Origin: Salinicola tamaricis
Lineage (GTDB): Bacteria > Pseudomonadota > Gammaproteobacteria > Pseudomonadales > Halomonadaceae
Assembly: GCF_003006155.1 (NCBI RefSeq)
Contig: NZ_CP023559.1
Location: 2,356,001-2,420,000, forward strand
Direction: 5' to 3'
DNA: 64,000 nucleotides
The notes under the pieces were generated by a model, which did not search any database, was not told where the DNA came from, and saw only the letters and a list, made by a program, of their open reading frames with translations. This document shows positions 21,943 through 55,961 of the stretch, one piece after another. The translations under genes and the position numbers were made by a program. Position 1 is the stretch's first letter. Every line of letters starts with the position of its first letter.

Positions 21943-22299
21943 GCGCGTCCTCGCAGCGGAGTTCGGTGGGTGTCGCAGGTCGTGGTGAAGAGACGACAGA
22001 AACGGCGTCGAGGCGTTGGCTTCGACGACCGGCGACTTCATCTTGCGTGGGTTCTATGGTATAAAGCCGCGCGCTCGACTGCAATTCCCGTCCTGACGCG
22101 GCGCGAGACAGCGATGTCTCATGCCCACATGATGGTGGAGGCGGTCGACGCGACAGTGGCGGTGAGTGCACTCGTCTCGAGGCGCCACCGAAAAAAACAC
22201 ACACGCACCGACACATGGTCCCGGGTGCCGTGACGGCAACGCCGAGCGGTCGGATCCATGGGGTGTGTGGAGGCCCAACCCGATTCTTCAGGAGTCACC
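21943..22299 (+). promoter_or_regulatory. map-rpsB divergent region: rpsB promoter and long leader
   Basis: Likely rpsB promoter: -10 TATAAA at 22060-22065, with a weaker -35 TTCATC at 22037-22042 and a 17-bp spacer. This leaves a ~225-nt leader before the rpsB ATG. Within it, GGTCCCGGGTGCCGTGACGGCAAC (around 22216) looks hairpin-prone. In gammaproteobacteria the S2 protein represses its own operon by binding the rpsB leader, so an autoregulatory structure is expected here, but I have not folded it. No ORF in the leader looks real. Confidence 0.5.
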
Positions 22300-53937: not shown

Positions 53938-54469
53938 GCTTTCAACCTCTCCAGCCCGCGGCGGACCCAGCTCTTGACCGTGCCCAGCGGTGCCGTCAGC
54001 TGCTGGCGAGCTCGTGATGTGTCATGCCTTCGAAATAGGCCAGCTCCAGCGCCTGGCGCTGCTGCGGCGTGAGCTCGTCGAGGCAGGCGTTCAATGAGTC
54101 TGCCTGGCCCGCCATGTCGCTGGCGTGCTCGACATCGTCATCGCTGGGCAGCGCCTCGATCAGGGCTTCGCTGTCCGGCGCGTTCGGGCGCTGGCGGCGT
54201 AGCCAGTCGATGCCGGCGTTGCGTGCCAGCGTCGATAGCCAGGTCATCGGCTGGGCGCGGCTGGCGTCATAACGGCCGGCGGCCTGCCACACGCGCAGAT
54301 AGACCTGCTGCAGGCAATCCTGCGCGGCGGCCTCCTGACGCACGATACGCAGCAGCTGCGCATAGAGATGCGGGCTGGTGGTGCGATAGAGCTTGGCGAA
54401 GGCGCGGTCGTCGCCGCGGGCGCAAGCCGCGAGCTGGCTGGCCAGGGTGTCGGGGGGCGGGTAGGTCAT
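53916..54469 (-). CDS. ECF sigma factor, SigK-like (C-terminal frameshift)
   Basis: Extracytoplasmic-function sigma-70 of ~184 residues. Region 2 has DDRAFAKLYRTTSPHLYAQL and DCLQQVYLRVWQAAGRYDAS, then PMTWLSTLARNAGIDWLRRQ; region 4 begins ELTPQQRQALELAYFEGMTH and HHELAS. The frame is lost near 54000, and QLTAPLGTVKSWVRRGLERL (the helix-turn-helix) follows in another frame to the stop at 53916. One base restores it. ATG 54469 is preceded by AGGATAACG. Co-transcribed with an RskA-type anti-sigma, suggesting response to an envelope or oxidative signal. Confidence 0.85.
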
Positions 54470-54596
54470 CGTTATCCTTTGATTTTTCTGGCTCGTGCGA
54501 TCCCTGCCCGGGGTTTACCACAGATTCACGCATGGTGTCTCGCGCGCCGCCCGGGGCGCTTCGCGGCGCCAGGCGCCACGCGTTTCCACGCGGTGC

Positions 54597-54624
54597 TTGT
54601 CAAATGCCGACGAGGCGTTAGGAT
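54597..54624 (+). promoter_or_regulatory. Candidate promoter of the aroG leader
   Basis: -35 TTGTCA (54597-54602), 16-bp spacer, -10 TAGGAT (54619-54624). Transcription would start ~20 bases before the leader peptide ATG, as expected for an attenuator-controlled gene. The rest of the 54470-54596 gap shows nothing clear apart from ECF-gene upstream sequence. Confidence 0.55.
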
Positions 54625-54651
54625 AGAGGCACGATCTACGCGAGAGAGCCC

Positions 54652-54783
54652 ATGACTTCCAACCCCGCCATCCACGCTGCCGCTGCTGCCGATCTCTTCG
54701 GCTGTGCTGTCGCGTATGCGGGCTTTGGTTTCGGTTATGGCTACTGGTTTAGGACTGGCGTGCCCGTCGGTCGGTCGACATGA
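54652..54783 (+). CDS. Aromatic-rich leader peptide (putative attenuator) upstream of DAHP synthase
   Basis: 43-codon ORF. Its middle reads AYAGFGFGYGYWFRTG: eight aromatic codons (four Phe with one more at residue 16, three Tyr, one Trp) concentrated between residues 22 and 33, with an earlier LFGC. Random sequence at this GC would rarely give such a cluster. It ends TGA 46 bases before a strong terminator hairpin and 107 before the DAHP synthase start. Leader peptides rich in the pathway's product are the hallmark of ribosome-mediated attenuation. GAGAG is a weak ribosome site. The ORF is small, so real translation is an inference. Confidence 0.68.
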   Translation: MTSNPAIHAAAAADLFGCAVAYAGFGFGYGYWFRTGVPVGRST

Positions 54784-54829
54784 CCTGAACCCGCGAGGCA
54801 CGCCCCACCAGGGCTGCCTTCCGCGTATC

Positions 54830-54867
54830 GAGAACCCCCGGAGCAGCCCGCCGGGGGTTCTCGCGTT
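54830..54867 (+). terminator. Attenuator terminator before the DAHP synthase gene
   Basis: GAGAACCCCCGG pairs perfectly with CCGGGGGTTCTC (12 bp, 9-base loop), followed by GCGTTTC. Upstream, GGGCTGC (54811-54817) is complementary to GCAGCCC in the terminator loop (54843-54849), and GGCGTGCC (54757-54764) to GGCACGCC (54797-54804). These give competing structures, as an attenuator needs. Confidence 0.75.
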
Positions 54868-54890
54868 TCAGGCCCCAACCCTGGAATGAG

Positions 54891-55961
54891 ATGATGATGA
54901 ACGCCGTGACATCTGCCCTGAAGCCTGCCGCCGAGAGCGCCCCGCGTCGGCGTGAACTGACCCTGCCCAGCGCCGCCGAGCTGCGCGCAGCGATCCCCCT
55001 GGAACCCATGCTGGCTGCCCGCGTCGCGCGTCAGCGCGAGGCCATTCGTGATGTCCTCACCGGGCGCGACGAGCGCCTGCTGGTGGTGGTCGGGCCGTGC
55101 TCGATCCATGACCCCGACGCCGCGCTGGAGTATGCCGAACGCCTGGCCGCGCTGCAGGCCAGCGTGGCCGATCGTTTGCTGCTGGTGATGCGGGTCTACG
55201 TCGAGAAGCCGCGCACCACGGTGGGCTGGAAGGGGCTGGCTTACGACCCGCACCTGGACGGCAGCGATGACATGGCGGCGGGGCTGGCCAGCGCCCGGCG
55301 GCTGATGCGCGATGTCGCCGCGCTGGGCCTACCGGTGGCCACCGAGCTGTTGCAACCGATGGCCGCGGCCTATTTCGATGATCTGCTGAGCTGGGTCGCG
55401 ATCGGCGCGCGCACCACCGAGTCGCAGATCCACCGCGAGCTGGCCAGCGGGCTCGACGCCTGTGTCGGCTTCAAGAACGGCACCCAGGGCAATGTCGACG
55501 TGGCGGTGGCGGCGATGCAATCGGCGGCGCACCCGCATCGCCACTTCGGGGTCACCGCCGAGGGCACGCCGGCGATGATCGAGACCCCCGGCAACCCCTT
55601 CACCCATCTGGTGCTGCGCGGGGGCCAGGATGGACCCAACCACGATGCCGCCAGCATCGCCGCCAGCCGCCGCGCGCTGGAGGCCGCCGGGCTGACGCCG
55701 CGGCTGATGGTCGACTGCAGCCACGCCAATTCGCGCAAGGATCACCGCCGCCAGACCGAGGTGCTGCACAGCGTGGTCGACCAGCGTCTGGCCGGCGAGC
55801 GCGCGCTGATGGGGGTGATGCTCGAAAGCCACCTCTTCGAGGGCAAGCAGCCGCTCAACCCGGCCGCGCTGCGCTACGGCGTCTCGATCACCGATGCCTG
55901 CCTGGGCTGGGAGACGACCGCGCAGCAGCTCATGCGCGCCGCCGAGCGTCTGCGCGGCTGA
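54891..55961 (+). CDS. aroG: 3-deoxy-7-phosphoheptulonate (DAHP) synthase, class I
   Basis: Intact 356-residue enzyme condensing PEP and erythrose 4-phosphate, the first step of aromatic amino-acid synthesis. Motifs: LVVVGPCSIHDPDAALEYAE, MRVYVEKPRTTVGWKGL, ATELLQP, GARTTESQIHRELASGLD, FKNGTQGNVDVA and MVDCSHANSRKDHR. It is of the AroF/AroG/AroH type, but the feedback-inhibiting amino acid cannot be read from sequence, so the G is nominal. Three consecutive ATGs (54891, 54894, 54897) make the exact start uncertain; I report the first. The leader upstream suggests control by charged aromatic tRNAs. Convergent with gspN. Confidence 0.93.
   Translation: MMMNAVTSALKPAAESAPRRRELTLPSAAELRAAIPLEPMLAARVARQREAIRDVLTGRDERLLVVVGPCSIHDPDAALEYAERLAALQASVADRLLLVMRVYVEKPRTTVGWKGLAYDPHLDGSDDMAAGLASARRLMRDVAALGLPVATELLQPMAAAYFDDLLSWVAIGARTTESQIHRELASGLDACVGFKNGTQGNVDVAVAAMQSAAHPHRHFGVTAEGTPAMIETPGNPFTHLVLRGGQDGPNHDAASIAASRRALEAAGLTPRLMVDCSHANSRKDHRRQTEVLHSVVDQRLAGERALMGVMLESHLFEGKQPLNPAALRYGVSITDACLGWETTAQQLMRAAERLRG

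Follow-up and report, generated by a model that had tools for sequence, protein, structure and literature searches.

A putative attenuator for tyrosine, tryptophan and phenylalanine ahead of a DAHP synthase gene in Salinicola, and its relation to the Pseudomonas RNA P15

In Salinicola tamaricis, a gene for DAHP synthase, the enzyme that opens the synthesis of aromatic amino acids, is preceded by a short ORF rich in aromatic residues and by a hairpin. The locus lies in a stretch of 64,000 nucleotides, hereafter the window, to which all coordinates refer. What does this leader do for the gene behind it? The first-pass annotation had proposed an attenuator that senses shortage of aromatic amino acids. 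Conservation, reading frame, gene context and, within limits, covariation support this proposal, which appears right on both the kind of control and its target. It is likely, at a probability of roughly 0.75, that the element attenuates transcription in a ribosome-mediated manner and thereby matches DAHP synthase to the joint supply of Tyr, Trp and Phe. Four points go beyond that annotation: homology to P15, a chain of alternative helices, a reversed parity of the proposed switch and the tandem form in relatives. The main features are as follows.

54597-54624, + strand: sigma-70-type promoter, TTGTCA-16-TAGGAT (promoter scan; hexamers in the genus alignment)
54652-54783, + strand: leader ORF of 43 codons, MTSNPAIHAAAAADLFGCAVAYAGFGFGYGYWFRTGVPVGRST, with a TGA stop (ORF list; counterpart at 18 of 18 genus loci)
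54742-54750, + strand: putative control codons Tyr31 (TAC), Trp32 (TGG) and Phe33 (TTT) (conservation)
54829-54863, + strand: terminator-like hairpin of 13 bp, followed by CGUUUC instead of a U-tract (sequence, folding)
54891-55961, + strand: DAHP synthase gene of the class I aroFGH type, presumed to be the regulated gene (domain and family matches)

The promoter lies where it had been annotated and is the sole promoter-like site within 54300-55000 (shuffles: mean 0.0, sd 0.1). Its -35 and -10 hexamers are mostly kept in an alignment of 18 upstream regions of the same genus. The 43-codon ORF is present, with residues 22-33 reading YAGFGFGYGYWF. A stretch of 12 codons with at least seven F/Y/W that include all three residues occurs once in the six frames of the window, and this is the leader. 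The gene matches PF00793 (4.2e-82), TIGR00034 (2e-133) and NF009395 (1.5e-152). A second DAHP synthase in the same genome, 53% identical, is without the element; the covariance model R2, described below, matches this genome once, at the window locus. The ORF, promoter and gene are oriented away from a gene for an ECF-type sigma factor (Sigma70_r2, r4_2) at 53996-54469 on the - strand. Elsewhere in the window, a t44 RNA (RF00127) was found at 22180-22279 on the + strand with 70 bits.

The hairpin was annotated as a perfect 12-bp terminator at 54830-54862. The 12 bp are perfect and extend to 13 bp, but termination would have to proceed with the tail CGTTTCAGG, which has no U-tract, and a terminator scan that requires a T-run found none here. 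The window has five further sites with a perfect 12-bp hairpin and a loop of 3-12 (11 overlapping entries if the two for the leader hairpin are counted), so that the leader hairpin alone is not rare there. The region 54628-54910 as a whole folds more stably than its shuffles (z -4.37; 0 of 200 shuffles as good).

In each of 18 genomes of the genus, the leader stands ahead of the orthologous DAHP synthase gene. The Tyr-Trp-Phe codons are present at all 18 loci, which were found through the gene. The N-terminal half of the peptide varies in sequence and length among them. From Gly-Tyr-Gly-Tyr-Trp-Phe to the hairpin, the DNA is almost frozen.

Two covariance models were used beyond these loci. 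The terms order and family follow the groupings of the genome tool, in which Pseudomonas is placed in the same order as Salinicola (Halomonadaceae). Model R1 was built from the 18 genus sequences, partly on RNAalifold folds, and its search ignored the gene. At E <= 0.1 it matched 223 of 250 family genomes and 52 of 390 order genomes. DAHP synthase lies downstream at 55 of the 56 R1 loci L031-L086, of which L031-L048 are the model's own 18; the remaining match, L086, looks like chance. Model R2, from 36 diverse sequences, is broader. At E <= 0.01 it matched 37 of 41 family genomes in 21 of 24 genera (one of the 37, G038, only weakly), and the other four gave no match. All 30 R2 loci fetched precede DAHP synthase and read Tyr-Trp-Phe; five of them are rows of R2, and all R2 rows were chosen via the Y-W-F pattern, so that the model leans that way. 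The dense aromatic run emphasized in the first-pass annotation is real, but beyond the genus only Tyr-Trp-Phe is kept.

A DNA pattern scan of named genomes gave at least 119 stretches. Among the 119 listed, 110 are followed on the same strand by DAHP synthase at a distance of 147-390 nt. The gene was not found at the other nine, at least six of which (L093, L099, L100, L129, L131 and L160) lie less than 500 nt from the end of the fetched stretch. The matches listed come from Salinicola, Halomonas, Chromohalobacter, Billgrantia, Pseudomonas, Stutzerimonas, Halopseudomonas and other genera. L131, from a Paucimonas sp. MAG, is a Pseudomonas-like element under the name of another class, perhaps from a mislabelled bin.

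A set of 141 unique elements was chosen by the pattern TA[TC]TGGTTTAG, which fixes Y, W and F by selection; codon conservation was therefore judged only from the 18 genus loci and the 30 R2 loci. In 131 of the 141, the aromatic codons are preceded in frame by an ATG with an SD-like sequence; the other two frames give 0 and 1 of 141. By sequence, a translatable short ORF upstream of the gene and conserved candidate control codons for the pathway's end products are thus indicated. Loss of the ORF or free variation of its aromatic codons in relatives, named earlier as evidence against an attenuator, was seen neither at the 18 genus loci nor at the 30 R2 loci.

A class-wide search with R2 matched 20 of 369 genomes. 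The sole convincing member outside the order is L239 (G790, another order of the class), with an E of 3.3e-16 and a position before DAHP synthase. Its peptide, ...YFYGYWFSRYGV, is identical to that of L199, and the element is possibly a transfer or an old relic. Other class-wide matches outside the order had an E of 4.6e-4 or worse, showed no DAHP synthase in the fetched loci and were rejected.

Downstream of the control codons, four segments were recognized.

54757-54764, + strand: region 1, GGCGUGCC, which begins 12 nt downstream of the Trp codon's first base (sequence, covariation)
54795-54805, + strand: region 2, GAGGCACGCCC, partner of region 1 (through 54797-54804) or of region 3 (covariation)
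54811-54822, + strand: region 3, GGGCUGCCUUCC, partner of region 2 or of region 4 (covariation)
54840-54849, + strand: region 4, GGAGCAGCCC, at the top of the hairpin, loop included, pairing with region 3 as the proposed antiterminator (covariation)

Two complementary pairs had been noted before, 54757-54764 with 54797-54804 and 54811-54817 with 54843-54849. Both are exact, and the second involves the hairpin loop, but there are three alternative helices (1:2, 2:3 and 3:4) instead of two. In all 20 elements listed, the segments come in the order 1, 2, 3, 4, region 2 can pair with 1 or 3, region 3 can pair with 2 or 4, and the duplex energies of the alternative pairings are -12.4 kcal/mol or lower. 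Helix 2:3 is mutually exclusive with both 1:2 and 3:4.

The 141 unique elements were thinned to 96 for the swap test and for ribosome-edge folding: 12 Salinicola, 19 long-spacer and 65 short-spacer elements, split by locus and spacer length and not by taxonomy. Covariation was scored in 36 of the 96 against 500 shuffles, permutations that do not remove relatedness. Cells changed on both sides numbered 38 against 9.5 in shuffles for 1:2 with the terminator (22 of the 38 in 1:2), 18 against 5.0 for 2:3 and 15 against 5.5 for 3:4, and 0 of 500 shuffles reached any of these counts. The percentage paired and the covariation score were likewise reached by 0 of 500 in each of the three helix sets. 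The tool rates two other measures as least swayed by relatedness. The number of pairs changed on both sides was reached by 18 (1:2 with the terminator), 239 (2:3) and 21 (3:4) of 500 shuffles, and the number of further pair types by 41, 301 and 103. Because these two measures are not clearly above shuffles, 2:3 above all, we rate the attenuator as likely and no more.

At one position of 1:2, U-A is found in 16 rows and C-G in 15; in 2:3, its region-2 base forms A-U in 16 rows and G-C in 15. With the partner slid, the share of cells paired did not exceed 56.0% (1:2 with the terminator), 48.4% (2:3) and 67.0% (3:4), against 87.8, 81.0 and 88.9% in the native registers. The covariation score fell as well on sliding, with one exception: 3:4 slid by -3 scored higher, with no double-sided change. 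Slid by -2 and +3, 1:2 had more pairs with double-sided change than the native helix and fewer such cells. In 2:3, the double-sided pairs were equal at -3 and more numerous at -2 and -1, again with fewer such cells. In the 31 Salinicola and long-spacer elements, the eight-pair helix 1:2 is complete, with 248 of 248 cells paired and double-sided changes in six. For 3:4, 241 of 247 cells are paired, and 12 show double-sided changes.

In the swap test on the 96 elements, native 1:2, 2:3, 3:4 and the hairpin beat all 2000 permutations. The unpredicted pairings A:B and A':B' were reached by 1388 and 1718 of 2000, and A:B' (region 1 with region 4), also unpredicted, gave a weaker signal (13 of 2000 overall; 1 of 2000 in Salinicola and long-spacer elements). 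The result holds within the 65 short-spacer elements and, with 15 of 2000 permutations reaching 3:4, within the 19 long-spacer elements. Within the 12 Salinicola elements, 2:3 was reached by 9 and 1:2, invariant in its eight pairs, by 95 of 2000; native 3:4 was worse than permuted (reached by 1997) and showed no covariation there. The covarying terminator and antiterminator stems anticipated by the first-pass annotation are hence seen between groups by cells and score; other measures do not all agree, and 3:4 shows no such signal within Salinicola. Between groups, these mutually exclusive helices could link the position of a ribosome to the terminator.

RNAalifold folds of the Salinicola alignment were considered as the main structure and dropped, as the wider set favours 1:2, 2:3 and 3:4. 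The first RNAalifold hairpin has compensatory changes in two Salinicola and may be a local fold of a free region.

A ribosome reaches about 12-13 nt beyond its A-site. The distance from the start of the Trp codon to region 1 is 12 nt in Salinicola and long-spacer elements and mostly 13 nt in short-spacer elements. Folding was modelled with only the RNA ahead of the ribosome, up to but without the 3' arm of the hairpin. With the ribosome at Tyr, Trp or Phe, the RNA is predicted to fold into 1:2 and 3:4. In the window, at an edge of 12, helices 1:2, 2:3 and 3:4 have 11.0, 0.0 and 9.9 pairs with Trp in the A-site, and 0.0, 8.9 and 1.8 pairs with the stop codon there. At an edge of 15, the outcome at the stop codon is reversed (0.0, 2.1 and 8.1) because region 2 is then partly covered; the result depends on the assumed footprint.

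The three groups differ in this model. At the stop codon and an edge of 12, 2:3 and 3:4 have 6.6 and 2.2 pairs in the short-spacer group and 7.9 and 3.4 in Salinicola; the long-spacer group keeps more 3:4 (3.3 and 7.7). Counted in codons from Trp, 2:3 first prevails at +2 in 8 of the 12 Salinicola and 8 of the 19 long-spacer elements; in 49 of the 65 short-spacer elements, this happens at +2 or +3. There is no codon at which 2:3 exceeds 3:4 in 1 of the 12 Salinicola, 10 of the 65 short-spacer and 10 of the 19 long-spacer elements. A first ribosome model, in which the footprint was merely barred from pairing, was replaced since it allowed RNA to pair across the ribosome. At the stop codon it gave 6.8 for 2:3 and 2.0 for 3:4 in the short-spacer group, as the scheme predicts, while 3:4 stayed at 10.4 in Salinicola and 10.1 in the long-spacer group, against the scheme. 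In the full transcript at equilibrium, the terminator hairpin wins at every ribosome position tried; 3:4 could thus work only kinetically, in the moment before the hairpin completes.

In the proposed mechanism, the leader would be translated while it is being transcribed. When charged tRNA is short for Tyr, Trp or, less sharply, Phe, the ribosome would stall just before region 1 and leave it free, and 1:2 would form. Region 3 would then be free to form 3:4, which sequesters the top of the hairpin, and RNA polymerase would continue into the gene. When all three aromatics are plentiful, the ribosome would reach the stop codon, where region 1 cannot pair with region 2. Helix 2:3 would then form, the hairpin would fold and transcription would end. 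Stalling, termination and the amino-acid response are predictions from sequence and folding models.

The leaders of E. coli trp and of other operons for Trp and Phe consist of a short ORF with codons for the product, competing helices and a hairpin before the gene. In E. coli trp, the stalled ribosome masks region 1, and 2:3 is the antiterminator. The Salinicola element shares the general architecture of these leaders, but it has no Rfam match at the gathering score. It also differs from E. coli trp in having codons for all three aromatics side by side and three alternative helices plus the terminator hairpin. In the model, this number of helices means that the stalled ribosome spares region 1 instead of masking it. 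The element would therefore not be a trp-type attenuator in the narrow sense: region 1 begins 12 nt past the start of the Trp codon, and hairpin sequence is part of 3:4 and not of 2:3. An untranslated leader would be read through by default. Being off with abundant aromatics is the expected direction for a biosynthetic gene, here predicted to be reached by a parity other than that of E. coli trp.

In Salinicola, control may instead be mainly translational, the position of the leader ribosome shifting RNA folds that leave the gene's ribosome-binding site accessible or cover it. We regard this as unlikely, although several observations near the start codon fit it. The start codon lies only ~27-50 nt past the hairpin, no U-tract follows the hairpin in the window, and several Salinicola have a further small hairpin over the start region:

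54864-54888, + strand: small hairpin CGUUUCAGG/CCUGGAAUG spanning the gene's ribosome-binding region (comparison within Salinicola)

This hairpin takes a different form in one Salinicola subgroup. The segment 54784-54797 is complementary to 54860-54872 (CCUGAACCCGCGAG/CUCGCGUUUCAGG), enclosing the terminator-like hairpin; this complementarity is kept in most Salinicola, and RNAalifold chooses most of the pairing. Its changes are one-sided only, however. The control codons are 150-175 nt from the gene start in Salinicola, against 250-560 nt in most relatives fetched, so that a translational mode is unlikely to be ancestral. The T-run of the hairpin tail is kept in short-spacer, Pseudomonas-like elements and is missing in the Salinicola window. 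Under the transcriptional attenuator that we prefer, Salinicola may terminate only weakly, with a possible further step at translation from folds around the start codon. Salinicola may have come to use a simpler switch or shifted part of it to translation.

The relatives connect the element to a catalogued RNA. An Rfam scan of 14 loci, 13 from relatives and the window's own, gave five matches to RF00627, listed as 'Pseudomonas sRNA P15', over the element. In 293 order genomes, 31 have an RF00627 match, 14 of them above the cut-off, and all 14 precede DAHP synthase. Among the lower-scoring loci fetched, 15 of 16 are also before DAHP synthase; the other, L233, looks like a chance match. Fourteen control genomes gave no match to RF00627. 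The window's genome gave none at E <= 0.01, the family threshold being 70 bits, and the Salinicola relative G004 scored 26.6 bits. In Pseudomonas, P15 spans the Y-W-F codons to the hairpin tail and stands before DAHP synthase, like the Salinicola element. Through these intermediates and the same gene context, we judge the two to be homologous.

P15 differs in being catalogued as a small RNA; the available parts of the RF00627 literature assign it no leader peptide or attenuation. It is also named in the accessible text of PMC2375449 and PMC10215021, and that of PMC8297930 and PMC2965389 does not mention it. In the openly searchable literature, as far as its text is available and with subscription papers outside it, no description of P15 or of this aromatic leader as an attenuator was found. 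The listing as an sRNA would suit a trans-acting RNA that merely overlaps the 5' end of the gene, and a stable terminated leader would register as a small RNA. Such an RNA is improbable here, given the 14 of 14 positions before DAHP synthase, the conserved reading frame with SD and the covariation of the alternative helices between groups. The terminated leader of the attenuator may also act in trans.

In TnaC, the nascent peptide arrests the ribosome, with a free amino acid as the signal. A similar arrest by this leader peptide, with a free aromatic amino acid as the signal, would account for the Y-W-F found in 30 of 30 R2 loci and for its Phe codon, which is TTT in all 30 though TTC is favoured (470 TTC against 60 TTT in 48 mechanical ORFs of at least 300 aa in the window). 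We consider it quite improbable, as the neighbours of Y-W-F are variable (it is followed by S, R, I, M or T), unlike a nascent-chain arrest motif. At 54748-54751 and in relatives, TTT followed by A, mostly as TTTAGC, is almost frozen in both leaders despite the TTC preference. A metabolite-binding riboswitch, perhaps the nature of P15 according to the available text of Livny et al. 2008, which argued from synteny (PMC2527527), would fit the very high nucleotide conservation within Salinicola, but it is very improbable, as the ORF with SD is found in one frame only, the Y-W-F codons keep a near-constant spacing from helix 1, and the groups share codons, competing helices and the hairpin, with no other conserved core seen.

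A second aromatic leader is found in most relatives fetched. A second ORF with TGGCGATTTA, which includes the Arg codon CGA, lies between the first hairpin and the gene in 111 among the 119 loci listed (for example, L049 and L050), and the motif is found downstream in 121 of the 141 unique elements. One example of the second leader reads MNYATYYRYDSFTAWRFS.... In L049 and L050, its Phe codon is 12 nt before CGGTCGG, which is complementary to a later CCGACCG. No U-tract terminator follows the second leader among the rows listed, and the second leader is absent from the five Salinicola loci among the 119.

The attenuators of Salmonella mgtCBR respond to other signals. The mgtCBR leader contains two short ORFs (PMC3641672, available text) and thereby resembles the tandem leaders of most relatives; the window has one leader, before another gene. 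For Corynebacterium glutamicum aroF, the accessible part of PMC4046766 describes a putative leader peptide with Phe-Tyr-Phe before a DAHP synthase gene. That leader is actinobacterial and has no Trp in the motif given there.

A fuller form of the preferred reading, to which we give an even chance, is an odd-parity attenuator for three amino acids. It would have one helix more than E. coli trp; a stall short of region 1 would keep the gene on, and the default would be on, with the gene turned off only after the ribosome has passed Tyr, Trp and Phe. The second leader with W-R-F in most relatives fetched would provide two-stage control, and 'sRNA P15' would be the terminated product of the first stage.

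If true, Pseudomonas and Halomonadaceae would directly control how much carbon enters the shikimate pathway as a whole, with all three end products read at one codon site, and the catalogued small RNA P15 would receive a function. The usual logic of attenuation would be inverted, for which removal of the leader start codon is a simple test. Such a switch would be useful to engineers of these hosts for aromatic compounds.

A variant form was observed at L077, L078, L080 and L082-L084 (family f20). It was left out of the counts, and its helix chain had no clear 1-2-3-4 fit in the two sequences folded. Its leader ends in ...FGYGFYFS, with F-Y-F codons, and a strong T-run follows the hairpin, before DAHP synthase.
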